Below, one piece after another: positions 21,131-49,057 of a stretch of DNA of 64,000 nucleotides. Source of the stretch: Paramyrothecium sp. XJ0827 (taxonomy: Eukaryota; Ascomycota; Sordariomycetes; Hypocreales; Stachybotryaceae); NCBI GenBank assembly GCA_020881915.1, contig JAJFPB010000011.1, positions 434,001-498,000 on the forward strand, written 5' to 3'. Each line of letters starts with the position of its first letter. The stretch's first letter is position 1. A model generated the notes under the pieces. The model searched no databases. It was given only the letters and a program-made list of their open reading frames with translations, and had not been told where the DNA came from. Position numbers and translations under genes: made by a program.

Positions 21131-21326
21131 TTGGAGCGTTCGCTTATCGATGGTGCCCGCAATTGCGTCGTAATCCGCTTAGACCACGTGACCACTTATC
21201 GCCCGCAAAACGCGGCCCGTGAAATCCGTGAAATCGTGTGCGCGACGCCTGATAAGTTCTGCTTATCTGGAGCGTTCGCTTATCTGGAGCGTTCGCTTAT
21301 CTGGAGCGTTCGCTTATCATGCACGT
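21131..21326 (+). repeat. right end of pogo P1 with four 17-bp iterons
   Basis: One iteron (TTGGAGCGTTCGCTTAT, from 21131) is followed by spacer and then three perfect tandem copies of TGGAGCGTTCGCTTATC (21268-21284, 21285-21301, 21302-21318). The terminal ATGCACGT ends at 21326 before a TA. The other pogo ends in the window have two iterons, so this one is expanded. Confidence 0.8.
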
Positions 21327-21328
21327 TA

Positions 21329-28339: not shown

Positions 28340-28354
28340 AGACTCCTTAATATA

Positions 28355-28397
28355 ACGTACATGCATAACGAGTTGGCCAGCATAACGAGTTGGCCAC
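28355..28397 (+). repeat. left inverted end of P2 with two iterons
   Basis: ACGTACATG followed by iterons at 28364-28380 and 28381-28397 (CATAACGAGTTGGCCAN). It is the inverse of 30171-30213. Confidence 0.9.
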
Positions 28398-28460
28398 TAA
28401 TCTCAACCCTCAAGATAGAAACTTCAATAAAAACACAACAGACCATTTGACCAATTAAAA

Positions 28461-30115
28461 CTAGTCGATATACTCTTGCTCAGATACCTCTACCTCAATC
28501 TTGCAAGTTCGTGCATTATGTCCGGGCTTACCGCACACACCACAGCGCCTTTGGGTCGGTTGTGCCGACCTTCCTTGACCACCTCTCCTCGATGATTCGG
28601 CCACTATCTGCGTGTTCACATCCATTTGATCAATTGATCCTTGACCTTCCTCTACAGTCATTGTCCCTCCATTACGTAGGCGTTTCTTTTTTTCCCTCCG
28701 GCGCCGGCTTAGTATCTCATTTGCCTCTCGAAGATCCCTGACCTCAGCCCTCAGTAATGTCATTTCATGCAATACTGCCTTAGTTCCCTTAGTCATTGAC
28801 TTCAAGGCCTCAATAATTGATGCTGGGGAGCTGCTGTGATGCCTTTCAATTCGTCTTCTTAGATACTCGGACTGAGATTCGGTTTCCCGGATGGTCTTTG
28901 GTGTCTTTGAAGTCCAAGGGTCAGGAAGCTCTGACTCACCTGTAGGAGGTGTTGGAGTTCGTAATTGGATATCAAGCTTCGAGATCACATGCTTTACATC
29001 AAGAGGAACAAGTCCAGCCCCTCTGAAACCTCCCTGGATATTTTTCTTCGTCATAGTGGCTTGGTGTGCGGCGTGGAAGGCAGGAAAGAACTCGGTCTTC
29101 GAAATGTGTGTTATAGAGCATTTGATCAAATGCTCTATTTCTCGACCGTAAGCTTTCTTAAGCGGCCCAAAGCAGGCCACATCAAGAGGCTGAAGTAGAT
29201 GAGACGAATGAGGTGGCATACAGAGTGTAATGATCTTGTTCTCCTTGCAGAAATCCTCAAAGGCGACTGAATGGTGGCTTTCATGCCCGTCAAGGACCAG
29301 AAGACGATAGGCACCATTTGATCTATTGATTGTATGCCGATTGAAGTGCTTTAGCCACTCAAGGCCTGTTTCGTTATCGGTCCAGCCATTTTTGGTGGTT
29401 GCGATAGCCCAATCGCCCGGGAGGTTGCTTTCTTGGTACCAACTCGAGAGATGATATTGGCCTGCAACGATGATGAACGGCGGTAGCACCCACCCTTCAG
29501 CATTGATCGATTGGATCGCTGTAACCCATTCCCGGTTTCCAGGCTGGACTTTTTAGGGTTCTGACGCTTTTCTGTACCCGTAACAACCATTCCGCTTGCA
29601 ATAACGCCCATCATAAAGCCAGTCTCATCGAAGTTATACAGATCATTTGATCCTATACCGTACTTCGCGATTGTGTTCTGTACAAGCGAGAACCACGCGT
29701 TTATTGCGACTGGATCTTCGCATTTGGCTCTCTCGTAGTCATATCTGCGAAAGAAACGCGTCTTGAGCTCTGGTTGCCGCTTAATAAAATTCGAAGCCCA
29801 GCGTGGTCCAACAGAAGGCATATTGCGATCAGCAAGCAGTCGATTGGCCATTTCTTCAACACCACAAAGCCGGGGTGAAAATCCTCGTGAATCTAGATCA
29901 AGAACATACTGAACTATCGTCTGCTCCTCAAGATCAGAAAGTTTACGTAAATTGGCCATAGTATCGCGTCTAGACTGTTTTCCACACTGCCGGTTACGCA
30001 ATGTCTGCCGAGGGATGTTGTAGATCCGTGCAGCACGTCGCAGACTTAATTTTGGGTCTTTTCGAAGGGCTTGAAGTGCAAGATTGATATCGCCCTCATT
30101 AATTGAGCTTGACAT
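28461..30115 (-). pseudogene. pogo-type transposase P2 (one frameshift)
   Basis: From the ATG at 30115: a psq-type helix-turn-helix (LSLRRAARIYNIPRQTLRNR), a CENP-B-like second DNA-binding domain (LADRNMPSVGPRWASNFIKR), and a DDE_1 nuclease with Asp in YNFDETGFMMG, Asp in [11 protein letters not shown] and Asp in LLQPLDVACFG. A basic coiled-coil tail and a C-terminal CCHC knuckle CGVCGKPGHNARTC follow. The frame breaks near 29550, where P2 has TTTTT and P5 has CCTTTT: a one-base loss just before the conserved PGNREWV stretch. Everything else is open, so the lesion is young. Pogo transposases cut and paste DNA at TA. Confidence 0.85.
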
Positions 30116-30170
30116 GGCTAGTTGTGGTGAATCATTTGATCAATTGATTGAGATGTAGGATGAGGGATTT

Positions 30171-30213
30171 TTGGCCAACTCGTTATGTTGGCCAACTCGT
30201 TATGCATGTACGT
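30171..30213 (+). repeat. right inverted end of P2 with two iterons
   Basis: TTGGCCAACTCGTTATG twice (30171-30187, 30188-30204), then CATGTACGT and a TA target. Confidence 0.9.
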
Positions 30214-30579
30214 TATTATTAGGAAATAATAAATATAAAAATACTTAGAGTAGTAGTAGAGTAGGAGTAGTAGGCCGCTTCTCCGCATGGGGTCGTGGGC
30301 ACACTCCATACAATTCGTCCTCACACAACATGCACCACCTCCAATCCGACCGCACATCTAAGTATTGGCTCATGACTGCCGGCAGCAGTACTCTTGGGTT
30401 AAGTATAGCTGCAGAAACTCCTCAACTGCGTCTTCGGGATACTGACCACCACCATATGGCTGCCAGTTGCGCTAAGTAGTATGATTGTATCCTAGGACTA
30501 GCTGTGTCCCAGGAGTGCCAGCCTCGAGCAGGTGGAATCTCTACGTCCAGCGTCAGACCTTCTGAACCTCTCTACCGTG
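30214..30579. other. spacer, no recognised feature
   Basis: Contains an A/T and TAG-rich stretch at 30216-30275. Nothing coding is supported. Confidence 0.4.
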
Positions 30580-32242
30580 CTAGCTAACTCTGTATTTCTG
30601 AGCAAATATTGCTTCTAGCTCCCCAACTTCATTGGAAAACCCGTGCCCACCCATGGTCATCTTTTTTACCTGTTTCCCCTGTCTACCCTTCCCCGCCCAT
30701 GCCCGCTTGTTTGGTATGATGGGCGCTAGTGGTTGGTGCTGCAGATCGAGCATCTCCGCCCGCTCAAAGTCAATTATCATGACACCAGTCTCCTCATTGA
30801 ACAGCATGTTCGCATCTCGCACATCTTTGTGGCGAACCCGTTGTCGATGGATAGCTTGCAGTGACTGAACGGCCAGTTCGCGTAGCTTGGCATTCAGGAT
30901 TCCAGCCGCCTGTGCTTCCGAGATGCTGCGTCCTCCCCATGATAGTATCGTCAGGTATACCACATACACCCGGTGATCGTAGTAGTATATTTTCTGCATC
31001 TGGCGAAGATCGATCGCCCCTAGAAATACTGGCACGTTTCTGCCTTGGACTGGGAGAAGACGCTTGTACACATCCGCCTCGTGCTCAAGATCGGGGATAA
31101 AAGCTTGCACCGTGCCTTTACTGACGAAAGTGTAGCCGTATACAAGCAACGTCACCTTGAACAGGACCCCGCGTGCGCCGCCGTGCGCCAGCGGCGTGAT
31201 GCCGTCATCAAGTGATTGTTGGAGCTGCTGATGAAGCAAACTGAGCCACTGCGTGTGATCCACAGGATGGTAATCACCATCCCTTCGGTGAAGACTCACA
31301 TTTGGGCATGTTGGGTCCAGCTTTTGTCCCTTGACTAGGCCAAGCAGACATTTTTGCGTACAGTAGGGGTTCTCTCGTTGAGACATCGCAGACGTCGACA
31401 TCGCAGACATTGTATCGGTTTCTGCCTCGGGCCCGGCCTCAGCATCATCCGCCCCTTTGCCTCCCCTTTGGCTTCCGCCCCTTCGCGGCCGTCGCGCGAG
31501 GATCCGCTTGCTCCTTCGAGGTCCAGCATTCCCTGTACTTGGGGTCGGTGTTTCTGGTGGCTTTAAAGACGATTCATCATCATCTGACGACTCTGGGTGA
31601 TTGTCTACCTTGGATAAGCTGTCACCACACTGGTCTTGAGTGAAAATGCGCCTCCTGAGGCGTTTGCAGATGGGTGACCGGTCGACGTTTTGATACGTTG
31701 TAGGCTCAGGAATAAATGATGCGTCCGATGACGCAGTTCGTTCACTGTCGGGTATAGGACCGCACTGTCGTTTCAAAGTCTTCCGCCCAGGTATGCAGAG
31801 TCTGTGTTGCTCTCTGTCGTTCTTCTTGCCCATGCTCATGCCGTGTCTCTAGGACCAGGAGAGTGAAAGTCAAGTATTGACCCACGGCCGTGCAGAGATG
31901 CAACTGATCTGAGTGCGCCGCGGCCGCCTCGGGGCCAGGCTCGGCCAGGTGGTAGTAGAGCGTGCCAGGATCATCCCAATTGATTGTGAGAAATACAATC
32001 GTCTCACCTGTCGTTAGAAGACTGTACTCAAGACCGCCCTCGATCATGTAGTGATATGTTTGTGTGATGGCAGACGCTGTCAACCTTTCTGCGAAGTATT
32101 GAAATCGAGCGGCTGGATCGACCGACGTTGGGATTGTCTTCCGGTTGACAACCTCCTTGTAAATATCCATGGGACGGAGACCGAGACGAAGATGAGAAGC
32201 CATTAACTTGTGAGGCGGCTTGTACTCGGAAATATAGAGCAT
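30580..32242 (-). pseudogene. kinase-like fungal protein, N-terminally incomplete, one frameshift
   Basis: The C-terminal half has protein-kinase landmarks: a glycine-rich segment (GGARGVLFKVTLLVYG), a candidate lysine in FVSKGT, the catalytic loop HKDVRDANMLFN (near 30810-30835) and a metal-binding DFE in VMIIDFERAE instead of DFG. Upstream are a Cys-containing segment (YCTQKCLLGLVKG), a basic/acidic low-complexity region, and a conserved module (SEYKPPHKLMASHLRLGLRP to WAEDFETTVRS) in a different frame. The two frames meet near 31758 and a single extra base explains the break. It resembles a multi-copy family of uncharacterised fungal proteins ending in a kinase-like domain; such members usually have a longer N-terminus. 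A further frame at 32203-32499 may belong to it or not. The DFE and HKD variants leave catalysis uncertain. Confidence 0.6.
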
Positions 32243-32552
32243 GGTGCGTCTTGCTGATTGTGTATCTTCGGATCGGTAGATGCAGATTTGATCGGCGCGT
32301 AGCTGATGGGGGTCGTGCCGCTGGTTGGGCGTTTGTGGGGGTGTTGACGGCGGTTCCCTATTAGGCCAGCTAGATGTGTTGTATACTTTGCTGGCCGGCA
32401 GAACTCGCTACCTTTGGGGCCCGAGAGTCCACATATCGCTGCAAAGTATACTATCATGGTCGAAGCCGCCTGACCATCATCGAAGTCCTCTGTTGCCATG
32501 AAAAAGCAGAACCGCAGAACGACATCGAGTTGAGGGTCTTGTGGGATGAGCC

Positions 32553-34184
32553 CTATTTATAGTTAATGATACGTATATCCCTCATCAGAATGGATGGGCT
32601 AAAACTGAAACCCTTACCAGAAACTTCCGCAATACTATCGTTTTCGTCTTCTAGGCTTGTATGATGAATAGGTTGGGTGTTGTAGTCGATATTCTCTTCG
32701 TCGCTAGCGTAGCACTCAGAACCCAATTCGCTTAGTGTACTATCAGAATCTTCATCACCTCCGAACTCTTGGTTCCCTTCTTCATAACTCTTCAACCCAG
32801 CCCTGGCTTCCCTGAAGATCCTATTTCGGACTTCAGCTGGTCTGCTGTCAGGTGCCCGGGCTTCAGGGTTATCGCTATTACGATCTATCCTTACAGGGCC
32901 ACCGCCCTCTCCCGGGACAGCCAGCCAGATAGGATCCCTCCATAGCGTCTCGAGTGCCTCGGTTTGCTCGTGTGTAAGTTTGCGTCCCGTCAACGCTCGA
33001 ACGGTCGATGGAGGAAGCAACCAAAGACGGACCCAGACACAGATGCATCGCTTGAACAACCGATGATATCGGCCCTTTGTCCGAGCATGTGCCACCACTT
33101 CGAACGGCGCCTTGAAAGGGCGATCGATGTATCTACCCCTGATCCAACGTCGGATGGTTGTATCTGTATGTGCCATGGTGTCGGTACAGCGATCAAACAG
33201 TCGATCGAGAGCCCGAATTATACTATACAGCCGAGTTTCATCTCGAGCGCTAGTTCTGAGCCGGACACCTTCCTGCGTAACCATTATATGTGGCTGTCCA
33301 GGCGCTGAGGGTATATCGCTGAGTGTGGTGAGGAACGTTCGATCAGCTCCGTGGAATATTGTCTCCCATTGGGTTCGGCGCATCCAGTTGCTCACAAGAT
33401 TCGGGGATGACTGCGGGCCGGAACCCATAGCAGTGGGTTTGCCGGGGCCGGGAGTAGTAGCATACGATATTCGCTGTAGCTCTGCCATGCAGATTGCGTC
33501 GGCATGCTTCTGCAGAGAGCCTTCTTCAGTGGTCGCACGCACTGCCAGCGGAGCCACTCTGGGCTGTTGGAAGGAGGTGAGCGAGGAGAAGGATCGGCTT
33601 TTGGTAACGCGCCAGGCATGATCAAGGCCACCTTGGACCCAAGTCTGCACCGTCACGATCTCCTGGATATCCTCGCGGATCCAGCGACCACCTGACTTGG
33701 CAGATCCGATTTTAAGCATATGCTCAGCTCTATAATGGCGTGGCACGACCTTGTCACTCGTGGAGTAGAAGCGGCAGTTCAAACATGCAAAGACTTCTTG
33801 CAAAGCTAGGAATGGGTGGGGCTTTTCGCCATCTGATCTCGCCGGTAGTGTCGCGGGGTCCGGTAGCTTGAGTGAGTTGACAAGTTTATTCAACCCTTTC
33901 CTAGCTGGCTTGCTATAGTTATGCTTTTCTCCAAGGTGCCTCGATACCCTATCTCCATCTGTTTTTAGGGCAACCCCGCAAGGTTTACATAGAATCGCAG
34001 CCTCAGGCTGGTTGAAGAATAGATCAAAGGAATCAAGGAACTTGAGCTCGTCAGAGGTTGGCGTTCGGGATGAAGTAGCGAATATGGGATTAGGGTCCAG
34101 CCCATGCATGATACGCTGTTGTCGCTGCTGCTGTTGGTCGCCGCACGCCGAGCCGGCTAGTAAATCTGGAGAGGTGGTGGCCAT
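32553..34184 (-). CDS. DUF3505/OrsD-like zinc-finger protein
   Basis: The ATG at 34184 opens a frame of about 540 codons. The N-terminal third has two Cys/His clusters: CKPCGVALKTDGDRVSRHLG with the following KH, and CLNCRFYSTSDKVVPRHYRAEH (C-x2-C, H-x4-H). This spacing and the text around it resemble the DUF3505 (OrsD) family. The rest is helical and basic, with an acidic tail (about residues 470-510). The function of the family is not established; members are often multi-copy and linked to repeats. A GTAAGG donor near 32617 in the 3' part could open an intron, so the true C-terminus may differ. It runs in the same direction as the kinase-like gene downstream. No frame break is present, in contrast to most neighbours. 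Confidence 0.6.
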   Translation of the reverse strand: MATTSPDLLAGSACGDQQQQRQQRIMHGLDPNPIFATSSRTPTSDELKFLDSFDLFFNQPEAAILCKPCGVALKTDGDRVSRHLGEKHNYSKPARKGLNKLVNSLKLPDPATLPARSDGEKPHPFLALQEVFACLNCRFYSTSDKVVPRHYRAEHMLKIGSAKSGGRWIREDIQEIVTVQTWVQGGLDHAWRVTKSRSFSSLTSFQQPRVAPLAVRATTEEGSLQKHADAICMAELQRISYATTPGPGKPTAMGSGPQSSPNLVSNWMRRTQWETIFHGADRTFLTTLSDIPSAPGQPHIMVTQEGVRLRTSARDETRLYSIIRALDRLFDRCTDTMAHTDTTIRRWIRGRYIDRPFKAPFEVVAHARTKGRYHRLFKRCICVWVRLWLLPPSTVRALTGRKLTHEQTEALETLWRDPIWLAVPGEGGGPVRIDRNSDNPEARAPDSRPAEVRNRIFREARAGLKSYEEGNQEFGGDEDSDSTLSELGSECYASDEENIDYNTQPIHHTSLEDENDSIAEVSGKGFSFSPSILMRDIRIINYK

Positions 34185-35281
34185 GTTACGAAATAGCAAT
34201 TACTCTTTATGCCCTCTTAAAGTAGGATTTGCCTTCGAAATAGGAGATTAGATCGATGATTATGAGTGTAGGAGGGAGGGAAGGGCAGGTGGATTGAATA
34301 GGGATGGATTGATGGGCTTTTCATCTTAACCAATTAAAATTACATTAAGTAAAACGGGGCGCGTTTCCATCGACAGAGCAACGCGTCTAACCAGGGTAAA
34401 AATGGGACTCGTTTACTAAGAAAAGGATAGTAACCGGCAACAGGGATAATAGCGAGATTGCGATTGGCGGAGACACTGAAATGGCTCCCGTTTCTGAAAG
34501 GACTGTCTGAGTAGTAGTTATATGTGATAGGGCCTCCGGGGCCGTTGTGTTGAAGAACTTGCTTTTTGGGAAATAGATGACACCAACCGCTGACCGGAAG
34601 TTCGGACTTCCGACCTGCCAGTCAGCAGTTTTTCTGAACAGCTGAGAGCCCTCCTTCCGGTTTGATCAAATGCATGACCTTTTGGTCCGTTTGATGTGAT
34701 AAAAGCAATGAAAAAAGCTTATTTCACTTATCCTGTTTATTCTGTTATTCCGTTACAACAGATTAGTGTGAGAGCCATAACATGATAACAGAATAACAGA
34801 ATAAAAAAATATTAACATGTTATACAGAACAAGCAACAGAATAACAGAACAAGTTGCCCATGTCTGCCTCTAGATTCTCCACTTGTCTCTTTGTTGGATG
34901 ACGCTGTCGAGTCACTTGCGGGCCGCCCTTGCTAGGCACTATCCCATGGTCGAAAATAAGGGCTGATGATTTCTGATAACTTACAGACGTATCACAATGA
35001 CTATTGCTCTACAAAGGGAGACTCGTGACTCAAAACAAGGATCATGGACGTGACAAAAGTCGATGCTCATTATATCTGCTAAAGGCTGTTCATATTCCTT
35101 GATTTTTGTATTTCTGCAATTGCTTCAAGGTCGATGACTCCATGAAGATCCCCTTGACTGCGCGAAGCCAGGTAGCTTGTAGCTGCCCCACAATAGATTA
35201 GTCAATTTGTCGGTACATAAAGTAACTTCTCAACCCCGCACCACCACAATTACTATGTACGCTGCTTGATACGATACCTCA
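34185..35281. other. intergenic with a small A/T-rich inverted repeat
   Basis: TTATTCTGTTAT (34737-34748) is inverted at 34785-34796 and again at 34793-34804, and AACAGAATAACAGAA-type repeats continue to about 34850. It could be a MITE remnant. No gene is seen. Confidence 0.45.
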
Positions 35282-36251
35282 ATGGCAGACAACGGATCAA
35301 AAAGTCAGCGGCAGGGTCGTCGGGGCCGGGCCGGGCGTGACGATGCCTCTGCTGCTGCTATTGAAGCTATTTTCGACGGTCCAAGACGAAGGCCACCACG
35401 CCGGGCCCGGCAGCAGGCCCGGCGGCAACAGCCTGCCGCCATTGCTGTTGACGACGTTGAAGCTGCTGACGATGTTGAAGCCATTGACGATATTGAGGCT
35501 GCTGACGATGTTGAAGATGCTGACGATGTTGAAGCTGTTGATGAAGGTGTTGAGCTTCCAATTACATTGAATAATAGCCGGCCGGAACAAGCCCATGATA
35601 GCACATGCAGACCAGATATCAAGCCCACGGACGCAATTGGTAGCAAATTTGAACCTTTCAACGTCCCTGAACGCCCCTTTCAAGTCCGTCAGCTCCCTGG
35701 GTCTCCATTGAAGCTGTTCCAGCATTTTCTACCTATTTGGCTCGTTGCAAAATGGGTCAAATATACGAACGACGATTCGGCTGCTGCTGATCCTAAGGAT
35801 CCAACGTTGAAGCCAAATAGTCGTGATAGACATTGGAAACCGACCTCTATTGCAGAGATCTATATATGGATAGCTAGGAATATCTATATGGATAGACATC
35901 CAGAAAAACAGCTCCCTAGCTATTGGAAGCACCCAGAAGGCGGCAGTAATATCTCTCCACATCGAATAGCTCGTTATATGTCTTATGACCGGTTTATCTT
36001 ACTGAAAAAACGGCTTCGAATTTACGATCCAGATAATATAGAAATAGGGATGCCATCACCATACAATAAGGTCAACGAATGGGCCAACGTCATGATGGAA
36101 GCCGCCCTTGATATCGTCATTATTGGCAGCATCATTGGTGTCGATGAGGCTATGCAGGGCTTCCAAGGGAGATCCAAAGAGATTGTAACTATCAAGACGA
36201 AGCCCGCACCCACAGGGCTCAAGATCTGGGTCCTAGCTGTCCAAGGATATA
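35282..36251 (+). pseudogene. piggyBac-like transposase, copy 2 (truncated by hAT-2)
   Basis: Same family as the copy at 94 (shared PGSPLKLFQHFLP, HWKPTSIAEIYIWI, SPYNKVNEWA, IGVDEAMQGFQGRSK). The N-terminus has an additional acidic repeat (DDVEAADDVEAIDDIEAADD, about 35448-35550) built of 15-bp steps, and a basic stretch before it. The similarity ends at VLAVQGY (36251), and the next base starts the hAT-2 terminal repeat. Only the first catalytic Asp (GVDEA) remains; the rest of the nuclease and the cysteine-rich tail are gone. The frame reads on for 66 codons into hAT DNA, which is meaningless coding. Confidence 0.85.
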
Positions 36252-36623
36252 CAGGGTTCAAAGCCACTCCACGAAAACCCACATATGGACTCACATATGG
36301 ATCCATATCAAATACACTCCATTCCATCAGACCCAGTTGTGGATTTACTCCCACTCCACGGGAGCCAGGCCACATGTGGAAATTGTGGAATGCAGTGGAT
36401 ATTTCCTTCATCTTAGCGGAGGTTTACAAATACCACAGAACCCCTAGTTAATAGGTTGAGTTTAAAGTATTTGCGAACTAATATGCCAGGTTTAAGACAA
36501 CGCATACCTGTTCCCTACCGATATCAAGCTACCTGGAATGGCTGTTCAGCTGTTCCTATGATGCTGCTCGCGACCGCAGCTGCCTGGCTGGCAGAATAAA
36601 GATCTGCACGATCCGGTGTATTT

Positions 36624-36631
36624 CCTCATGG
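36624..36631 (+). repeat. hAT-1 target site duplication, left
   Basis: CCTCATGG, identical to 40374-40381. Confidence 0.9.
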
Positions 36632-39600
36632 CAGAGTGCGTAATCAACCAACTACTTCCAATCGTTGGAGCCGTTGGATCCTCCAACTGTGGGTCCAACT
36701 CAACTGAGATCTCGCTCCCCGTGCTTGGCAACCAACCAATTCAGAAGTCCAGTTGATTGGGTTTGGATCCAACCGGTTCCAACTCGTTCCCAGTGTCCGA
36801 GGGTCATGTGAGGCCCGGGCGCCGTAACTTTGACCCCACCTTCAACTTCCCAGTTTGGCTTTTCGTACGGCCCGCTGGCCAATGATCGGCCGCTGAGGGG
36901 CATCATCTTGAGCCAAACGAAACAAACCCTTTCTCGCCTCTCCCACCCGCGCCAGCTTCGCGCTCTTCTCGCGCCAGCCTGGCGTCTGATTATAATTCAT
37001 TCTTGAGCTTATCATTCAGCTTCTCCACGGAAGGCTGAACGGTGGGGCCTTGGAAGTTAAGCCTCCGCGTGAAGGCCTGTGGGGATCTATAAGTCGCTAG
37101 TACATGCGTCCAGTGAAACATTTTGACTTGTGTGTAGGTACAGCGGCCTGTCACCCCACATTCATCAGTCACAGTGGTCGATGTTCACTGTCATGCACAC
37201 GGCATTCTGGACTACGAAACGATACCTTGGAAACATATCTCTAACCATGATAGAATTGATACCAGAAGAAAGCTTTCAGCAAAAGAAATTCAGTGAGTAT
37301 ACTTTAACTGTATGAATGTTAGATAAGAGCTACCGTACAGGCCGCCTATTTATTATGGTGGGGCTGGTATCTCTTAACTCCACAGCTTAGGCTTCGCCGC
37401 TGAGATAACATACTCTTTACTATCTCTCATGTTGCAAGATACATCCGGTACCGTAGATTATATAGTGCCGTGGCTGTGCCTGCTAACATGCCTTAGCACC
37501 ACATCAGAGCTTCGCGATTTGCACACGGCGCGTCGGATCGCGTGGCGGTTTCTCAACGCGTTAATTGTCCCTGCAGACGGCCTGGAAAGGCTGCGCTGTC
37601 GTGCCCGATAAAATGGAGGCAAAGGACGTTGGCCTCTGGTCGTCAAATGTTGCAGTACGTCGCCGCTGAAGGAAGCCATACTATTCCTTCGCTGACAGAC
37701 TCCAGCAGTCTAGCTTCCCAGCCAACACGATGGATATCGATTCCCAGGACATTTTCTTGGGCCAAGTAGGATCTGAAACGTCCTTGACCCTACATTCGTC
37801 TCCCTGCCCGTCGAGGCTCTCTACTCAGTCCTCATTCTTGTCAGGTTCAACGCCGCAGACCCCGCCGAGGAAGATATTTAACCTGGATGAGAATCCTACG
37901 CCTGGCGAGATAGCCACGTTCCCGTTCGAGCTCTTCAACGACGAGCTTCGGGCAGGCACGCCTCCGAGGACTAATGGCGCAAAGGTTGCCTGGTGGTGGG
38001 TGAAAGGGTTCCGTATGAGGCTCAAGGGTAACAGCAAGAAGCTTCGATGGGTATGCCGTCTGTGCGTGAGGAAGAGGTGCCGGACGGTCTCGCACTTCTC
38101 GTACGAATCTAACGGCAGTGCCAATATTATCAAGCACCTGCGAGATATTCATGGGACCAAGGTAAGCAATAAGCAGCTCCTCATTCTTTTACTCCAACTC
38201 AATCTTGCAGGACCCAGGAAGGAAAGACGTGACGCCGCCCAGCCGCACTAAGACTCTGACAGAACACTTTGGAGTGACTGCAGCCCCAGCCGACCAGCGT
38301 ATCTTTTCTACCATTCTTGGGAGGCTCAAACTCGGCGCATTCGAAGAGCTTCTCGTCGACTGGATAACACACGATAATCTTCCTTTCCGACTAATCAAGA
38401 GTGAGCGTCTCCGCCGCCTCATTGAGTTTGTCAACCCCGATGTACAAAGACAAGATATCATCTTCCGCGGTTCTTCGGTCTCGACTGCGATCGATCTACA
38501 ATGGGGCGAAAGGAGCTGTAACGGAACATCTAAAAACTGCTCGTGGCAAGATTCACATCACATTTGATGGCTGGACGTCTCGCAATCAGCTCTCGTTGCT
38601 TGGAGTCAACTGCTTCTTTGTTGACGAACAATGGCGGCACCGGAAACTGCTTCTCGCCCTTCCAGCCGTATCCGGACGCCATACTGGCGATAGCTTAGCC
38701 AACGAAGTGGCTGACGTCTTGGCAGAGTGGGATCTTGGAGGCGACCGGCTTGGGTATATGGTCCTTGATAATGCCAGCAATAACGACACGGCAATGGTGG
38801 CTCTCGGCAACGAATTCGAGTTTGACCCAGACGAACACCGTCTCCGCTGTCTGGGCCACGTCATTAACCTCGCCGTCAAGCAGCTGATATTCGGCAAGGC
38901 GGCGGACGCAATGGAGCATACAGGCAGCAACGAACTGGACTCCGAATACGATTTCGACTCTCTACCGGCCGATAAGCTTATGCAATGGCGGAGGAGGGGC
39001 CCAATTGGTCGACTTCACAATCTCAACGCCGCTGTCTTGAACTCGCCGCAACACTTAGAGTGCCTCTTGAAGTGGCAAGAAGAAGATCTCAAAAGCGGTG
39101 TCCTTGAACTCGTCGATCCTGAGACTAGGAAGAAGCGAGTGCCGCTCAGACCTATCGCTGACAACGAGACCCGCTGGAACTCTCGCCACCGTATGATGGT
39201 CCGCGCTCTGCTTCTCCGTAGATACTTCAATCGGATTGTCGACAAGGCAGAAAGGGCGTGGGGAAGGAGCAAGAGAAAGTCAACGAAGCCTTCTATAATT
39301 GACGACGAGCTGTCAGAAGAGGACTGGGACGTGGTTGAGGTTTTAATTCAAGTCTTGCGGCCGTTTGATGAGATCTCCGTTCGTCTACAAGGCAACCCGA
39401 AGACTAGCGAGGATAACTATGTTACCACCGGCTCCTTTTGGGAGTATTTCCCCTCCTTTGAGTATCTCTTAACGCATTTAGAGGAGCTCAAGCAGAGTCA
39501 TGACCTCCTTGAGGGCTTGGGAAAGGACAGCGCTGATATGGTTGCTACCCATATCAACCTTGCGTGGATGAAGCTTAACGAGTACTACGATAAACTCTGG

Positions 39601-40373
39601 CCTGTTGCGTATATCGGTGCTGTAGTGCTTCACCCTTGCTTTGGGTGGCCGGCGCTGCAATACCACTGGGAAGGACATGCGGATGCGACGCAGTGGGAAG
39701 AAGATTACTCGACAAGACTCAAGAAGATGTGGAAGGAGGAGTATGCTACTCGCGTGGTTCCTGGCTTAGCGATGCTGTCGACAGCGAGCAGCCGAAGGGC
39801 GCTCTCTGGATATGACGCGTTCCTGGCACAGTTGCTCGGCAAACGCAAAAGGGCGCATCCAGATGACAGAGCGGGATATCCTTCGCAACGGCGCCCAGCG
39901 CTTGACGAGTACGAACGTTATATCCAGACTTTTACCCCAGCCGACGACAAATGCCAATTCAGCCCTCTTTCTTGGTGGAAAGAGCACGAAATGGAGTATC
40001 CGAACCTCTCTCGAATGGCCTCTGACTTGCTGTCTATCCCTACAATGTCAGCAGAGACTGAAAGGTCGTTCAGTAGCGGGGGCAAGATGGTATCACCTTT
40101 ACGAACTCGTCTTGATCGACACACTATTGGGATGGCGCAGAGTATGCGGTCATGGAGCAGGGAGGGTATTGTCCTACCCTCATGGCAGTGATGAGTGGGA
40201 TCGGCGTTAAGACGTGAAGATCGGAGATATCCGTTGGTCAAACAACCAACCAACTGCAATCCAACTGAGAGCAGCCTCGTCCAACGTCAATCCAACTGAA
40301 ATATACTTGGCCGGATGTCAATCCAACTGCGAGGAGGTACCAGTTGAGTTGAATTGGTTGATTACGCACTCTG
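36632..40373 (+). mobile_element. hAT-1 element, complete ends and target duplication
   Basis: Terminal inverted repeat CAGAGTGCGTAATCAACCA at 36632 and its inverse ending at 40373. The perfect 8-bp duplication CCTCATGG flanks it (36624-36631, 40374-40381), the hallmark of hAT insertion. GTTGGATT-type subterminal repeats are dense at both ends. It lies inside the 5' part of hAT-2, so it is the younger insertion. Confidence 0.92.
37730..40191 (+). pseudogene. hAT transposase of hAT-1 (one intron, one frameshift)
   Basis: The ATG at 37730 leads to a BED-type zinc finger (WVCRLCVRKRCRTVSH..IIKHLRDIHG). A 49-nt intron (38162-38210, GTAAGC..TGCAG, phase 0) follows. Then come the RNase H-like core with Asp in HITFDGWTSRN (about 38563) and Asp in LDNASNN (about 38768), the large insertion domain (RPIADNETRWNSRHR), and the C-terminal dimerisation domain with the third acidic residue in SAETERSFSSGG (about 40055). 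Near 38500 the frame slips by one base between AIDLQ and NGAKGAVTEHLKT; both sides are family-like, so this is an indel. Otherwise the gene is complete (about 800 residues). It would catalyse cut-and-paste transposition of hAT-1. Confidence 0.88.
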
Positions 40374-40381
40374 CCTCATGG
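40374..40381 (+). repeat. hAT-1 target site duplication, right
   Basis: CCTCATGG, identical to 36624-36631. Confidence 0.9.
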
Positions 40382-40539
40382 GCGACGCGATCCTCAGATA
40401 ATTCTCATCAATTGGCTGATGCTATTAGACCTTCGACTATGTGGATTTTAATTGTCTGACAATGCCAATGCGTCCGACTACCGGTACTTTGGCTCATTCT
40501 GACTGGCAACAAAACTTCAGCTGCAAATATCGTATCACA

Positions 40540-42448
40540 ATGGCCGACTATCAGCCCGATTCTCGACCAGGTACTCTCGAGCCCTCTGCGCAAGGGAAAT
40601 CGACGGCGGCGATCCCCGAACGAACAGAAGAAGACGAACAACGGCTATTTCGCTTGTTCAAGGGCTGGACTTTGTCCGAAAGAGATGGCCACACGCGTCA
40701 ATGGGTCTACCGGTTTGGGTACGACATTCAGAATATAGCAACGAAGGAACGCCGCTGGGTCTGTTGTATGTGTATCAAACGGAAGGATCCGAGGCCGAAG
40801 AATTACCACTATAAGGGCCTGCAGAACGCTGAGAGCCACTTGTTCAAGGATCACAACGGCATAGTCGATCCTTCAGGTAAAAGGCAGGCCCTGAAATCTA
40901 CCGTTGCAACACCCGCCCGTTCAATTGCTACATTACTTCGATTGAATCCAGAGGTCCCCCGCGATCAAGAAATAACGAATCTATTAATCAAGCGGTTTAA
41001 TAAAGCCGCGTTTCAACAGATGATCGTCAACTGGATCGTCAACACGAATCGATCGTTCACCACCGCGAAAGATCCTGACCTGCGAGCGATCTTCGAATAT
41101 CTCAACCCCTCTGTTTCCATTACAGAAGCTCACATATCCGATGTAACGGTGCGCGCAATCGCCGAAAGAGAATTCAACGCGAATAAATCGGCTGTACGGA
41201 AAGACGCTTCGGAAGAGCCCAGGCCAAATCCATATCCAGTTTGATGGATGGCGATCCGGGAACAGGCATGCTCTTTACGGCGTTACTTGTATATTTAGGG
41301 ATCTGGATAACAGGCCCCGGAAGTGCGTTCTCGGCCTCCCGGAGCTACTAGGCCAGCACACAGGCGAGATTATCGCTGAGCAGATACTCGACATCGTCCG
41401 GGAGTTCGAGATTGGGGATAAGCTGGGCTACTTTACGCTGGATAACGCCTCGAATAACAAAACAACGATGGAAGAGCTGGGCCATGAGCTAGGATTCGAC
41501 TGGAAGAAGCGCTGGGTTCGCTGCATTGGCCATGTTGTCAATATAGTGGTGAAACACATGCTATTTGGCCAAGGTCCAAACGCGTTCGAGCAACAGATCT
41601 ACGACGGCCAATTGACGGCCGCGAGGGAACACGAGCAGTGGCGCAAAAGGGGTCCAGTAGGTAAATGGCATAACTTCGCTCATGCGTACGAACATCTTCT
41701 CGAGTCCCTCGAATCCGCCAAAAAGATTGCCGTTGGCCTCCCTGACTCCGAGCATCTCGCCGTTAATATTAATCTAGGCTGGATAAAGCTCGATGAGTAT
41801 TATCAATACCTCAACGACAGTCCTGCGATCTACGGCGCGCCGGCTCTCCATCCTGCTTACCGCTGGGCATTATTCGACGATCTGTGGGGTGATGATGCTA
41901 AACGGCGGACGTGGATTATCAAAGCCAAAGCGATTATTCAGGATCTGTGGGAATGCGAATACAAGGACTTATTTTCTGAAGATCAAGACTCTGATTTACC
42001 TGCAAGTAAACGTCTTAAATCCTCAAGGAACAAGTTTACAGCCTGGCGTAACAGCAAACGAGGGCTAACTCTTCAGAATCAGGCTATTGACGAGTCCGCC
42101 GGGGCATCTCTTTCGTCATTGTACAGAGGGTTGGATCTCGATGAGTACGATCAGTGGCAACGCAATATCGACGATTCTGACGCTCTCGTTACCGACCCAT
42201 ACGAATACTGGCACACCAGGCGTCTCAAGTACCCCAAATTGAGTAGGATGGCCCTGGATTTACTGACTGTGGCCCCTATGTCAGCAGAGTGTGAGAGGTT
42301 GTTTTCAGTGGCCGAGCAGATGGTTACGAGGCTTAGGAATCGGCTAGATGCTTCAACTATCGGCATGTGCCAGACTTTACGCAGTTGGCTACGTGCAGGA
42401 TTGATCGAGCAGCTGGATCAGATACTGACAGAACCTTCGAGGGAATGA
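40540..42448 (+). pseudogene. hAT transposase of hAT-2 (frameshift, internal deletion)
   Basis: The ATG at 40540 opens a frame with a BED-like finger (WVCCMCIKRKDPRPKNYHYK..HLFKDHNG). It ends at a frame slip near 41218, after which the core continues: FDGWRSGNRHALYGV, then LDNASNNKTTMEELG. The C-terminal dimerisation region (SAECERLFSVAEQM, SWLRAGL) is intact. Compared with hAT-1 and hAT-3, the stretch between KWHNFAHAYEHL and LESLESAKKIAVG lacks most of the insertion domain, including the DNETRW-type segment. Two independent defects make this copy inactive. It is only moderately related to hAT-1, so the two are different families. Confidence 0.82.
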
Positions 42449-42641
42449 TGGCGATATGCCAGGGGTTGAGTTATGCAAGGGAGTAAGTCCCTTGCTCGTC
42501 ATGTGGACATCTTTTCCACATTGTGGATTCACATCCATGATGGATCCATATCCATCCATTCCACCGCCGTGATCTTAGTCATCATCCACATCAATTCCAT
42601 ATCCTCGAATGTGTAGTGGAGTGTAGTGGCTTTGAACCCTG

Positions 42642-43675
42642 GCTGGGCGATACAGCCGTTCATTGTGGTTGCAGGCCAATATCACCTCTCCATCTGGTAC
42701 CAAGAAAGCAACCTCCCGGGTGATTGGGCTATCGCTACGACCAAAAATGGCTGGACCGACAATGAGACGGGTTTTGAGTGGCTCAAGCACTTCGATCAAC
42801 ACACAAAGGCCCGATCAAATGGTCGCTATCGCCTTCTGATCCTCGATGGGCACGAAAGCCACCACTCGACCAAGTTTGAGACATATTGTAAGAATAACAA
42901 CATCGTCACGCTCTGTATGCCGCCTCATTCGTCTCATCTACTCCAGCCTCTTTATGTTGGGTGCTTTGGGCCGCTCAAACACGCCTACGGTCGGCAAATA
43001 GAGTATTTGATCAGATGCTCTATAACTCACATTTCAAAGACTGAGTTCTTTCCAGCCTTTTACGCTGCCTTTCAAGCCGCAATGACAAAAAGCAATATCC
43101 AGGGAGGTTTCAGAGGAGCTGGGCTTGTTCCTCTAGATCCAGAAAATGTGCTTTCGAAGCTTGATGTGCAGCTACGGACTCCAACACCTGTCGAAGAGGA
43201 GGCGAGCCTCCCGGGCCCTTGGGTCTCAAAGACTCCAAAGACCGTCCTAGAGGCTAGCTCTCAGTCTGAATTCCTTAAAAGACGAGTTGAGAGACATCAG
43301 AGCAGCTCTCCGACATCTATTTTTGAAGCAATTGAGTCTTTTTCTAAGGGAACGAAGGCAATAATGCATCAGATGGCACTATTGAAGTCTGAGAACCAAA
43401 TTCTTCGACAGGCGAATGAGACCCTTAGCAGGCGGCGCAGAGCAAAAAGGACATACCTACGCAATGGAGGGAAGATGACTCTAGATGAAGGAAGGGAAGC
43501 AATTGATCAGAAGGATGTTAATACGCAGCTAGTGGCCGAATCGTCCAGAAGTCATAGTCAAAGAGGGTCGGCGCGACTGAAGGAAAGGCGTTGTGGAATA
43601 TGCAGCAAGACTGTTCATAATGCAAGAACATGTCAGGTCGTTATAGAGGTGTCTGGAGAGGAGTATAGCGATTAG
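42642..43675 (+). pseudogene. pogo transposase P3, C-terminal half
   Basis: Starts abruptly at the hAT-2 end, within the segment GWAIQPFIVVAGQYHLS, and continues open to the CCHC tail (CGICSKTVHNARTC) and YSD stop. It retains Asp in [11 protein letters not shown] and in the LLQPLYVGCFG region, where the expected third Asp reads Tyr (LYV for LDV). The DNA-binding N-terminus and first Asp are missing. The usual right end does not follow the stop codon; instead a left-type pogo end begins 22 bp later (43698). It is orphaned on both sides. Confidence 0.82.
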
Positions 43676-43946
43676 TTTTAATTGATTAGATGCTTTAACG
43701 TATATGCATAACGAGTGCAACAACATAACGAGTGCAACAGTTCTTATCGCACCTTATAAGCGATTTTTCTAGGATTTTTTAAAAATTGAATTTTATAATA
43801 AAATAGCTAATATTATCTATATGGCTTCTGATAAGGATTTTCTACTTTAAATAAATCTATAGAAAATATAGATTAACCCTAACCCTATTAAACAGAGATC
43901 TTTCCTTATCTAAGACCCACTTTTCTAATATCTCTTTATATATATA

Positions 43947-45805
43947 ACGTACATGATAAGCGAGTGCACCAACCAAGCGAGTGCACCAAAAATTCACACC
44001 ATTAAAATAGAACATTACTTAAAATCACTACAAAACATCTAATCAATTAAAATTAATCACTATCGTCTTCTTCAGATACTAACACAACTATCTGACATGT
44101 TCTTGAATTATGTCCGGTATTTCCACAGGTTCTACAGCGCCTTTCTCTCGCCAGTGCTGACCTCCCTCGACCACCACTTCTCAACAATCCAGCCATTATC
44201 TGCGCATCAACGTCTTTCTGATCAATCTCATCCCTTCCCTCACCTATAGTCATCTTCCCTCCATTCTGTAGCCGGGTTCTTTTTGCCCTACGCCGCTTGC
44301 TAAGAGTCTCATTTGCCTGTCGAAGGATCTGGTTCTCAGACTTTAATAATGCTATTTGATGCATTATCGCCTTCGTTCCCTTAGAAAATGACTTAAGCGC
44401 ATCAACAATAGATGCTGGGAGCTTCCTGGTGCCTTCTGATTCCGTCTTTCAAGGTATTCAGATTGAGAGGTAGCCTCAAGGACCGTCTTTGGCGTCTTGG
44501 GCACGCAAGGGTCGGGGAGGCCGGCCTCCTCCTCAATCGGTGTTGGAGTTCGTACCTGCACATCAAGCTTCGATATGACACTTTCTGGGTCTAAAGGAAC
44601 AAGCCCGGCCCCTCTAAAACCCCCTTTGATATTAATTTCTATTATGGCGGCTTGGTGGGCGGCGTAAAATGCCAGAAAGAACTCAGTCTTAGAAACGTGG
44701 GTTATAGAGCACCTGATCAGATGCTCTATTTCTCGACCGTATGCCTTTTTGAGTGGCCCAAAGCACCCGACATCAAGAGGCTGAAGTAGGTGAGACGAAT
44801 GAGGCGGCATACACAGCGTAATGATATGGTTATCTTCACAATATTTCTCAAAGTCAACCGAGTGGTGACTTCCATGCCCATCGAGGATCAGAAGACGATA
44901 GCGACCGGTTGATCGGGCCTTGGTATGCCGGTCAAAGTGTTTTAGCCACTCAAGGCCGGTCTCATTGTCGGTCCAACCATTTTGAGTTGTCGCAATAGCC
45001 CAGTCGCCCGGAAGGTTGCTTTCCTGGTACCAGCTTGCGAGGTGATATTGGCCCGCGACCACGATGAACGGCGCGATCGCCCAGCCTTCGGCATTAATCG
45101 CCTGAATGACTGTAACCCATTCCCGGTTTCCAGGCTGGACTGATTTCGGGTTTCCACGCCTATCTGCACCTGTGACGACCATTCCGCTTGCAATTATGCC
45201 CATCATAAAGCCGGTCTCATCAAAGTTGTAGATATCGGCTAGGTCGATGCCATATTTCGCGATTGTGTTCTCCACGAGCCGGAACCAATTGCGAATAATG
45301 GTTGGATCTTCGCATTTAGCCCTCTGATAGTCATATTTACGAAAAAAACGCGTCTTGAGCTCTGGTTGTCGCCTGACGAAGTTGGAAGCCCAGCGCTTGC
45401 CGACAGGTGACGCGTCGCGGTCAGCGAGCAGTCGGTTGGCCATTTCTTCAACACCACGCAGTCGCGGGGGAAATCCTCGCGAATCCAGGTCGAGAATGAA
45501 CTGGACAATAATCTGCTCCTCTAGATCGGATAGTCTCCGTGAGTTGGGGATGGTATCGCGCCGAGACTGGATGCCCCTCTGTCGGCGACGAAGGGCATAA
45601 TAATCCACCTGGTATAATCTTGCGGCGGGTCGTAGACCCAGTTTCGGGTCATTTTGAAGGGCCCGAGGAGCGAGAAGCATATTAGCTTCATTATTTGATT
45701 GTGACATATTTGGTGGTTGAGAAATAGTTGATTAGATGTAAAGAGGAGAGATTGAGTAATTTTTGGTGCACTCGCTTGGTTGGTGCACTCGCTTATCATG
45801 TACGT
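43947..45805 (-). mobile_element. pogo element P4
   Basis: 1,859 bp between TA dinucleotides. Left iterons at 43955-43971 and 43972-43988, right iterons at 45764-45780 and 45781-45797, all with the core GGTGCACT. This core differs from P2 but agrees at both ends. Confidence 0.9.
44053..45707 (-). pseudogene. pogo-type transposase P4 (late frameshift only)
   Basis: The ATG at 45707 opens 447 codons: psq helix-turn-helix (LRPAARLYQVDYYALRRR), CENP-B-like domain, and the whole DDE_1 nuclease with Asp in YNFDETGFMMG, ILDGHGSHHS and LLQPLDVGCFG. The frame slips near 44425, after the catalytic domain, cutting off the coiled-coil and CCHC tail (CRTCGNTGHNSRTC, read in another frame at 44053-44364). 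Of the pogo copies here it is the closest to functional: nuclease and DNA-binding parts are unbroken. Whether the tail is needed is unknown. Confidence 0.85.
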
Positions 45806-45932
45806 TATATCTTATATTTAATCTATTTAGATCTAAACCCGATTTTTAATAGAATTTTTAAATCTTTAAATTAAGGTGTAAAATCAAGTGGGCCACTCGC
45901 TTGTCTGGGCCACTCGCTATACATGTACGTTA

Positions 45933-46438
45933 GATCTTTTGGTTCGATGGGTTTACCGAAACTTGGACTGGACGTCGCTTCAGCGTCATACCATACTGAG
46001 ATCGTTTGATCATGGACAAGTTGATCCTGATAACAGCGATCTTCCAATCATGGACCTCCGCTGCAGCGGTGCGAAGCTTGCTGCAATAACTCCTGCCCGT
46101 ACAGGCCCATTGATAGTGTTGGACAATATCTTTTCCCCAATATCGCGCCACAGTCTTCAATGCCGTGACGCACTTGCATTTCCTATCACGTCCGCGCTTG
46201 GCAATATTGAAGAATTTATCCCAATGGATCGTGTCGTTTATGGTATCCGATGTCTTGAACCCGCTTGAGCGGTGGTCTTCGATGACCTGAACGGGCCCAC
46301 TCTGATGAGCCCCCATTGGCCGTGACTCACCACTTCCAGTGGCTTTTCGCTGTAAAAGCACACACATGATGAGGATACAAACTCTACGGAGTTAAAGTCC
46401 GTAAGTCCCGAGAAGTTACGGTTGAAACGTGCACAGAG
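45933..46438. other. unassigned stretch between pogo remnants
   Basis: Open on both strands for over 120 codons (45888-46268 plus, 45930-46367 minus) without a family I recognise. It may be the degenerate 3' flank of the older pogo-B element. Confidence 0.35.
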
Positions 46439-47069
46439 CTAGCGCGGCGACGGGAGCGCAGGCGACGGCCTTATGCCCAGCTTATCTGCGATAACTCGTA
46501 TTATACCGGTAGATTCTGGAGGCCCACTCTCTGGCCTCTCTGCCTTGTCTTCTTGAATTTCTGGATGCTTCAATGCCTTAGCCCGGGAGACTGGCCAATT
46601 CCCAGTTACTCTCCAGCTGGATAATACATTCTTTGTGGTCATCCCGATCTCCCGTGCCTTGGCATAAGCCCGTATAAAATTGACTTTGTCAACGGGTGTG
46701 GAATCCGTGAGAGAAGTCAACTTATCAAGCTCTTTTCGATATGCCGTCTTCATGGCATTAAAATCTCCCGTTATCCAATGGTTGGAGGCCATGAGAACAG
46801 TGGACGGGGAGATAACAACAATAGATGTTATTCAAAAAGCATAAGGTCATCCACTCGTCCTACCACTTCATGCTAACATTGACCTTTGGGAATAGAAGTG
46901 AAGAACGCACCGTTGCATGACTTCCATGGCCGTCCATGATGATAAGTCTGGCATCAGAGGCATCTGCAGGCTTAGTCTGTGGCATATACCTCTTCGAGCC
47001 ACCTAACGGCGATGTGGTTGTCCGTCCACCCGTTGGGTGAGGTTATATAATGCCAATCAGCTAACGTTA

Positions 47070-48922
47070 ACGTACATGCATAACGAACGCTCCAACATAA
47101 CGAGCGCTCCACAAATCTCAATCCTCAAGATAGGAACCTCAATTAAAACACCACAAACTATTCGATCAATAAAAACTAATCGCTATACTCTTGCCCAAAT
47201 ACCTCTACCTCTATCTTACATGTTCGTGCGTTATGGCCGGGCTTACCGCATACACCACAATGCCTTACCCTCGGCTGCCCCGACCTTCTTTGACTACCTT
47301 GCCTCGATGATTCGGCTACTACCTGCGTATCAATATCCATTTGATCAATTGATGCCTGACCTTCCCCTATAGTCATCATCCCTCCATTGCGTAGGCGTTT
47401 CTTTTTTTCCCTCCGGCGCCGGCTTAGTATCTCATTTGCCTCTCGAAGATCCTTAACCTCAGCCTCTAGTAATGCCATCTTATGCTGATTTGCAAGTAAA
47501 CTCTTAGAGAATGAGTTCAGGGCATCAATAATTGATGCTGGAGAGCTACTCTTATGTCTTCTGATTCGTCTTCTTAGGTATTCAGATTGAGATTCGGGTT
47601 CTCTGACCGTCTTTGGGGTCCTTGAGGTCCAAGGGGCAGGAAGCTCCGGCTCATCGATAGCAGGCGTTGGAGTCCGTAGCCGGATATCAAGCTTCGAGAT
47701 CACATGGCTCGCATCTAAAGGAGCAAGTCCGGCGCCTTTGAACCCTCCCCGAATATTGGTATTAGTTATCGTGGCTAGATGTGCGGTATGGAAGGCGGGA
47801 AAGAACTCGGTCTTGGAAATGTGTGTTATAGAGCACTTGATCAAATGCTCTATTTCTCGACCATAAGCCTTCTTAAGCGGCCCAAAGCAGCCCACATCTA
47901 GTGGCTGGAGTAGATGAGATGAATAAGGCGGCATACAGAGCGTGATAATCTTATTCTCCTTGCAGAAATCCTTAAAGGCGACCGAAGGGTGGCTCTCATG
48001 CCCATCAAGGATCAGGAGACGATAGGCACCATTTGATCGCTGAATTGTATGCCGATTGAAGTGTTTTAGCCACTCGAGGCCCGTCTCGTTGTCGGTCCAG
48101 CCATTTTTAGTGGTTGCAATAGCCCAGTAAGGTTGCTTTCGCGATACCAGCTAGAGAGGTGATATTGGCCTGCAACGATGATGAATGGCGGCAGCGCCCA
48201 CCCTCCAGCATTAATCGATTCAATCGCTGTAACCCATTCCCGGTTTCCAGGTTGAACCCTTTTAGGGTTGGCACGCCTTTCTGTGCCTGTAATAACCATG
48301 CCGCTTGCAATAATGCCCATCATAAAGCCAGTCTCATCAAAGTTGTACTGATCATTTAATCCAATGCCGTACTTTGCGATTATCTTCTCCACAAGCGAGA
48401 ACCACGCGTTTATTGCGATTGGATTTTCGCATTTGGCCCTCTGGTAGTCATACCTACGAAAGAAACGCGTTCTGAGCTCTGGTTGCCGCTTAATAAAATT
48501 CGAGGCCCAACGTGGCCCAACAGGAGGCATCTCACGCTCAGCAAGCAGTCGATTAGCCATATCTTCAACACCACAAAGCCGGGGAGAAAACCCTCGCATA
48601 TCCAGATCAAGGATATATTGAACTATCGCCCGCTCCTCAAGATCAGATAGTTTACGTAAATTAGCCTTAGTATCGCGTCGAGAAGCCATTCCTTTTTGGC
48701 GCCGATGTAAGGTATAGTGAGGCACTTGGTAGATAACTGCAGCGCGTCGCAGGCTTAATTTCGGGTCTTTCTGAAGGGCTTGAAGTGCGAGATTAAGATT
48801 AGCCTCTTCAATTGAGTTTGACATGGCTAGTTGTGGTGAATCATTTGATTAATTGATTGAGATGTAGGATGAGGGATTTTTGTAGCACTCGTTATGTTGT
48901 AGCACTCGTTAGGCATGTACGT
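47070..48922 (-). mobile_element. pogo element P5
   Basis: 1,853 bp between TA dinucleotides (47068-47069, 48923-48924). Left iterons 47079-47095 and 47096-47112 (core GCGCTCCA or ACGCTCCA). Right iterons 48880-48896 and 48897-48913 (TTGTAGCACTCGTTANG). Unlike P2 and P4, the two ends differ at several core bases. Confidence 0.88.
47176..48824 (-). pseudogene. pogo-type transposase P5 (7-bp deletion)
   Basis: From the ATG at 48824: psq helix-turn-helix (LSLRRAAVIYQVPHYTLHRR), CENP-B-like domain, first catalytic Asp in YNFDETGFMMG. At about 48128 seven bases (CGCCCGG on the plus strand) present in P4 are missing, shifting the frame within ESNLPGDWAIATT. The second part, with LQPLDVGCFGPLKKAYG and the CCHC tail (CGVCGKPGHNARTC), is open to 47176. 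Outside the recognition helix it is nearly identical to P2 in the first 200 residues. Confidence 0.85.
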
Positions 48923-49057
48923 TAGTGCTGATATGCTGTCTTGTCTTTCTCTTTTCGGTAAGCTTAGCTTAAACGCAGTGACGTAAGGGCTGCACAAGTT
49001 GTAAATCCTTTTGTTGGTCAGCTGGATTTCGTCCTTAAAATGCGAGCCAACCCCCAT

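Follow-up and report, generated by a model that had tools for sequence, protein, structure and literature searches.

How do related transposons that share one genome become separate units? This question is raised, and made testable, by a 64,000-nucleotide stretch of Paramyrothecium sp. XJ0827 (contig JAJFPB010000011.1, positions 434,001 to 498,000; hereafter the window), which carries the pogo elements P2, P4 and P5 with tandem repeats (iterons) at their ends. The original prediction, made from the letters alone, proposed that the recognition helix of each transposase reads a variable core in the iterons of its own element, that helix and core co-evolve, and that sibling families may escape cross-mobilisation in this way. 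We compared the window elements against the whole genome (51.8 Mb, 15 contigs). We observed that helix and core are paired genome-wide, independently of the sequence around them. Taken as a whole, our data make it very probable that the helix reads the core and that old helix-core pairs have been kept matched while their backgrounds moved.

P2, P4 and P5 are each ~1.86 kb long and are, judged by sequence, Fot5-like members of the pogo superfamily. The Fot5 label comes here from the source name of one homologue alone (P0059, Fusarium mundagurra, named Fot5 transposase; 76% identity to P4, among the best 120 of 4898 homologues). Reading inward, each element has TA, ACGTACATG, two 17-bp iterons, ~57 bp and the ATG, and TA adjoins the terminal inverted repeats (TIRs) at both outer edges; the termini and the two iterons per end are as originally described. 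Each iteron consists of a nearly constant 9-bp half (for example CATAACGAG or ATAAGCGAG), a 6-bp variable core and two bases. P4 has one core, TGCACC, at all four iterons, as originally noted, and its 53-bp ends are 100% complementary. P5 was said to have disagreeing ends, and it does (TGCTAC at the 5′ end versus CGCTCC at the 3′ end).

A search with the end pattern, allowing one mismatch, matched 282 places in the genome and the reversed control matched 0, so the pattern is not due to chance. A protein search with part of P4 yielded 361 candidate places, of which 150 were scored; in some cases two of these places are parts of a single copy. Loci were fetched by place, apart from several degenerate copies, some of the P2 type and many of the near-identical P4-type copies. 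Of the 115 transposase N-termini, 7 were set aside because the helix or the 5′ iteron could not be read, 10 were divergent and treated separately, and one further copy (L036-1050) was excluded as it had no true 5′ end. This left a main set of 97 copies in which residues 34-45 of the helix were readable and the 5′ end was genuine, comprising 30 helix sequences and 22 cores.

We observed that the 5′ core was the core of the copy's own helix type in 96 of these 97 copies, L047 being the exception. The pattern is real and extends far beyond the window, whose small number of helix-end pairs (three) had been called a weak point. At the 3′ end, the core agreed with the helix type in 55 of 61 readable ends, and a matching 3′ core, 1.6 kb away, was found in at least one copy of 18 of the 22 helix types with a readable 3′ end. 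Two 17-bp iterons were also present in six divergent helix types, whose cores occupy the same position as in the main set, bases 21-26 from the terminal TA (TG in place of TA in L068). Across 31 helix types, the genome holds at least 26 different cores. The palindromic tendency originally noted held up, with a 6-bp palindrome in 5 of 31 types versus 1.3 expected from column shuffles (p = 0.005). In scoring, the two 5′ iterons of L091 differ (CGACAG, CGACAC) and were counted as agreeing, the second-iteron core of L068 (TCGGTC) was used (the first is CCGGTC), and the end of the MPQTTLSDRLRG type was taken from L042, a relative of L076. In the statistics on 25 and 31 types, the flank tree and the restricted shuffles, the IPRKTLGRRQQG type was represented by the flank of L031, a copy that carries an insertion and is interrupted by a stop following residue 81.

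The test proposed with the original prediction, run on this genome, showed that the helix predicts the core and the flanking protein does not. In 26 representatives, core distance followed helix distance when the flank was controlled for (r = 0.25, p = 0.0012), and with the helix controlled for it did not follow the flank (r = −0.04, p = 0.64); a sliding-window correlation with the core was highest at residues 33-49. After five near-duplicate helix types had been merged, the partial correlation between helix and core was 0.21 (p = 0.0055) in 25 types and 0.36 (p = 0.0005) in 31 types. The share of core bases in common with the nearest helix type was 0.70 (0.73) versus 0.51 (0.49) by chance, and with the nearest flank type 0.50 (0.54), which was not significant; values in brackets are for a second set of types.

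These data bear on the possibility that core and helix are mere lineage labels, inherited from the founder of each subfamily and read by nothing. Copy counts are inflated by the near-identity of copies within each subfamily, and only ~150 bp separates the 5′ iterons from the helix, both as such descent would have it. However, the sequence between the iterons and the helix (the untranslated region (UTR) and codons 2-29) shares one history with codons 50-83 (r = 0.78-0.84, 19 types), following the N-terminal coding part, and is unrelated to the core (r = 0.04-0.06), whereas helix residues follow the core (r = 0.31, p = 0.0013). Similar helices on different backgrounds have similar cores; for example, xxGGCC occurs in five PR[QTA]TL types, of which three do not belong to the main set. 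The matching 3′ cores are likewise hard to reconcile with labels, given their distance. The helix-core result also persisted when cores were shuffled only within clusters of similar background. These restricted shuffles already largely refute the lineage-label explanation, which we consider very unlikely.

If the helix reads the core, particular residues may go with particular bases, and a residue-to-base code for the helix begins to show in the aligned types. Asp41 occurred with C at core base 2 in 8/8 types and C in 0/23 others (main set alone, 3/3 and 0/22), and Arg41 occurred with G at this base in 18/18. Ten types added later all fit (five Asp41 with C, five non-Asp41 with G). The half-site is linked to a second residue: Leu56 occurs with AACGA and Ser56 with AGCGA, and the half-site follows residue 56 in both helix types that have Leu56 as well as Ser56 (ISRFTLSRRQQG, VCRKKLGRRQQG). 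Residue 56 had six apparent exceptions. Three (L036-1050, L050, L063) have no true 5′ end or no readable helix; in the others (L045, L054, L071), a stray match in flanking DNA comes first.

Helix residues were more variable than flanking ones, in agreement with the original prediction; the proportion of amino-acid-changing differences (pN) was 0.35 in the helix versus 0.10 in the flanks (43 near pairs). We also made a new observation: silent divergence in the helix codons is roughly threefold that of the flanks. Across 32 type pairs whose flanks are similar, positions with a shared amino acid used different codons in 152/257 cases in the helix (0.59) versus 144/691 and 180/954 in the flanks (0.19-0.21). 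At residues invariant in all compared types, silent differences were 88/145 versus 140/841 (29 pairs). Seven disjoint pairs gave 39/66 in the helix versus 51/320 in the flank (p = 3e-12), the helix exceeding the flank in 7/7. Between types, helix silent divergence was 0.56-0.75 across flank divergences of 0.16-0.74, and 0.29 in the nine pairs with flank divergence below 0.1. Since selection acting only on amino acids would not increase silent divergence, the excess points to the helix being an old segment in younger backgrounds, and the pattern most likely reflects old alleles whose surroundings were shared or exchanged more recently. For P2 and P5, the pairs therefore resemble old alleles more than products of fresh co-evolution.

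A recent arms race, with selected point changes repeatedly creating specificities in young subfamilies, would explain the several-fold higher amino-acid change in the helix. It would also suit P5 and L045, which differ by one residue in 34-45 (His/Tyr36) and by one core base. The helix silent sites are also raised, which is not expected from selection on amino acids in young copies, and we regard an arms race as improbable. The island of silent divergence has sharp edges (~codons 34-48), which could suit a local mutator or diversity-generating process aimed at helix codons and ends. But same-helix copies whose flanks are 0.17-0.22 apart at silent sites differ no more in the helix (0.20, five pairs), which leaves this explanation barely credible, although no search aimed at a mutator gene or template repeat was made.

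Exchange between specificities is visible in mixed-end copies. The last 40% of L045 and L044 matched the ISWETL family (core CCGCCC) at 96-100%, and the 3′ core of L044, CCGCCC, is a mismatch to its helix type. In P5, the last 140 bp matched ISRFTL-type ends (core CGCTCC) at 98%, and the first 320 bp were nearest to L045. P5 is a chimera with a 3′ end exchanged from another specificity, which is why its ends disagree; this structure accounts for what had been named as a second weak point.

We suggest that old, matched pairs would arise as follows. The transposase may bind the 17-bp iterons at both ends through an N-terminal domain with two helix-turn-helix (HTH) motifs, similar to that of CENP-B, with the psq recognition helix (residues 36-43) reading the 6-bp variable core by direct contact. 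The half-site is constant but for one base, and residue 56, before the second HTH, may read that base. A match between helix and core would be selected for, with selection against mismatch as the force that keeps pairs together; backgrounds would pass between specificities by sharing, conversion or exchange, and the helix would remain paired with its iterons. Predicted structural models placed the recognition helix at residues 36-43 (predicted local distance difference test scores of 58.6 for a 249-residue model and 80.8 for a 125-residue model). The solved structure closest to the N-terminal domain by fold comparison was CENP-B (1hlv); searches of the PDB by sequence, with one protein and a profile, gave no relative, so that CENP-B was reached by fold comparison only. 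A CENP-B-box-like site sought by eye across the boundary of two iterons was rejected, its spacing being off by one base.

Several results weigh against this explanation. Copies of one helix with unrelated cores had been named beforehand as a potential refutation; copies carrying the core of another type did occur: 1/97 at the 5′ end (L047, with the TGGCCC core of another helix type) and 6/61 at the 3′ end (P5, L037, L073, L045, L091, L044). Three of these (P5, L045, L044) were traced by sequence comparison to a 3′ part from another family. When 441 residue-base tests were run on the first 21 types, the link of residue 41 with core base 2 came out strongest (permutation p = 0.0007), but it was not significant after Bonferroni correction over all 441. 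A single clade contains four of the eight Asp41 types. Mapped on the flank tree, Asp41 and C undergo four changes apiece, and these coincide row by row; only 5/28 inner branches are well supported, and they carry only one Asp41-C contrast. The rules of His40 with A at core base 5 (4/4 versus 5/27) and PR[QTA]TL with GGCC (5/5 versus 0/26) were picked post hoc, from inspection of the data, and the residue 56 split lies mostly in one clade. The helix keeps some tie to its background: helix residues correlated at 0.19-0.26, and helix nucleotides at 0.33-0.44, with the UTR and flanking codons (19 types); the correlation of helix with flank was 0.007 in the 25-type set. In 11 more diverged elements, the helix segment correlated with coding and 3′ segments at 0.65-0.72. 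The fold match to CENP-B had a Foldseek E-value of 0.065 and a root-mean-square deviation of 8.7-8.9. The pairwise homoplasy index test detected recombination with mixed-end copies included (p = 0.001, 16 elements) and none without them (p = 0.22, 11 elements), so that its support for recombination depends on those copies.

In homologues, variation also concentrates in the helix. The best 120 of 4898 homologues, those nearest to P4, included 111 with a readable helix and 70 different helices. None of the 70 was identical to a helix of this genome in this sample, which is biased to P4 relatives; one, VDYYALRRRQKG, was one residue from that of P4. Mean entropy in the 111 was 1.64 at residues 34-47 versus 0.99 at 8-33 and 0.61 at 48-100. 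Of the twelve positions that vary most within the first hundred, six fell in 34-47.

For Tc1/mariner elements, Lampe and colleagues reportedly put forward the idea that related elements within one genome can become separate once transposase and end no longer interact; few elements are said to have been compared, with no multi-allelic set in one genome. Tentatively, and with the odds somewhat against us, we suggest that the Fot5-like elements behave as a multi-allelic recognition locus in one genome. Selection against mismatch and an advantage for rare codes, unusable by defective copies, would keep ancient helix-iteron alleles apart, the rest of the element would be exchanged or homogenised, and the pairs would spell a psq residue-to-base code. 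Self-incompatibility and the major histocompatibility complex are multi-allelic recognition loci, and silent divergence is raised at the specificity segment here as in a balanced multi-allelic system. About 30 natural helix types with 26 cores in one genome could serve as a panel for decoding DNA recognition of the psq/CENP-B type, and would let one ask whether mobile elements can maintain balanced alleles.

The DNA-binding domain of CENP-B has two HTH motifs and the CENP-B box is 17 bp. CENP-B is described as a domesticated pogo relative (PMC7325037). It is a host protein with one fixed site, whereas in the present elements 26 versions of the part assigned to the first helix occur across 31 types. 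Fot5 is known from Fusarium oxysporum, with ~64 intact Fot5 open reading frames in Fol4287, and mFot5 is a pogo-like miniature inverted-repeat transposable element (MITE) of <500 bp with TIRs similar to Fot5 (PMC3599309); the accessible portion of that report treats Fot5 as one family and mentions neither end specificities nor a helix link. In VANDAL elements of Arabidopsis, VANC proteins and tandem motifs of the same element changed together, and sibling families have separate targets (PMC5735166). The likeness is that a transposon-coded DNA-binding protein pairs with tandem short motifs. VANC, however, is an anti-silencing factor and not a transposase, its motifs lie in non-coding regions and not in 17-bp end iterons, and the accessible part of that source presents two motif sets (VANC21, VANC6) and contains neither a residue-to-base rule nor an island of silent divergence (PMC5735166). 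Among openly licensed papers, we found no report of transposase helices paired with iteron cores in many specificities in one genome, and nothing on transposase-end co-evolution closer than VANDAL.

The features of the window are given in Table 1.

Table 1. Positions of the Fot5-like elements and related features in the window
Feature	Position	Strand	Details
P2, Fot5-like pogo element	28353..30215	-	TA to TA; core TTGGCC in all four iterons
P2 3′-end iterons	28364..28397	+	halves 28364-28372 and 28381-28389; cores 28373-28378 and 28390-28395
P2 5′-end iterons	30173..30204	-	core 1 30195-30190; core 2 30178-30173
P2 recognition helix	29981..30016	-	residues 34-45 IPRQTLRNRQCG; ATG at 30115; HTH_psq match
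P2 transposase N-terminal open frame	29351..30115	-	254 amino acids; HTH_psq and HTH_Tnp_Tc5
P2 transposase C-terminal open frame	28461..29489	-	DDE_1; C-terminal Cys-rich CGVCGKPGHNARTC stretch
P4, Fot5-like pogo element	43945..45807	-	core TGCACC in all four iterons
P4 transposase open frame	44364..45707	-	447 amino acids; DDE_1 and HTH_Tnp_Tc5
P4 recognition helix	45573..45608	-	residues 34-45 VDYYALRRRQRG
P5, chimeric Fot5-like element	47068..48924	-	5′ core TGCTAC; 3′ core CGCTCC
P5 recognition helix	48690..48725	-	residues 34-45 VPHYTLHRRQKG
P5 5′-end iterons	48882..48913	-	core TGCTAC
P5 3′-end iterons	47079..47110	+	core CGCTCC; final ~140 bp share 98% identity with the 3′ ends of four elements of the ISRFTL type
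P3, truncated transposase fragment	42626..43692	+	without N-terminus or ends
P1 end	21269..21328	-	three iterons, core CGCTCC; terminus TAACGTGCATG
Probable ~374-bp non-autonomous element split by P4	43696..45932	.	43696-43944 and 45808-45932, probably one unit

The helix sequences originally quoted for P2, P5 and P4 match the translations, and three other details had to be corrected. In P2, the core TTGGCC, read inward, is present at 4/4 iterons, but the quoted 10-mer TTGGCCAACT is at 2/4, both at the 5′ end; the 3′-end iterons read GTGGCCAACT and CTGGCCAACT. The GGAGCGTTCG iterons of P1 sit at 21269-21312, outside the range 28355..48922 to which they had been assigned. The near-identity of P2 and P5 beyond the helix was not confirmed: over 194 residues, 36/180 differ outside 34-47 and 8/14 inside, six of the 36 being the last six residues, at the end of the P2 open frame. 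A domain search found DDE_1 in P4 (E = 4.9e-32) and in the P2 C-terminal frame (E = 2.4e-28). HTH_Tnp_Tc5 was over cut-off in P2, P4 and P5, and HTH_psq in P2 and P5; P4 had no HTH_psq match at E = 0.01.

The unit interrupted by P4 has a left core TGCAAC and a right core TGGCCC, and looks like a mixed-end MITE. Units of ~425 bp with TGCAAC at both ends, similar to mFot5, were present among the matches listed (C2:1397513-1397938, C2:1401545-1401969). The code could predict transposase-MITE partners of this kind, and the helper that it predicts for these units is a VPYYTLHRRQKG-type transposase (L045). Three iterons per end, not two, were seen at L019, L047, L079, L151 and at window positions 21269-21312, with the core constant within each array, which suggests that a core may spread within an array by unit duplication.

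Among the ~10 P2-type copies listed, five have a common 262-amino-acid N-terminal open frame, and the copy at C12:1545018 has a 493-amino-acid frame without stops. The copies with the 262-amino-acid frame seem to be a broken class that multiplied nonetheless. L029 and several places from the protein search were strongly degraded, with many TAG/TAA codons, which might reflect repeat-induced mutation. Elsewhere in the window, an open reading frame at 35282-36451 contains a tandem repeat with a 9-bp period and Asp/Glu-rich units (35444-35562).

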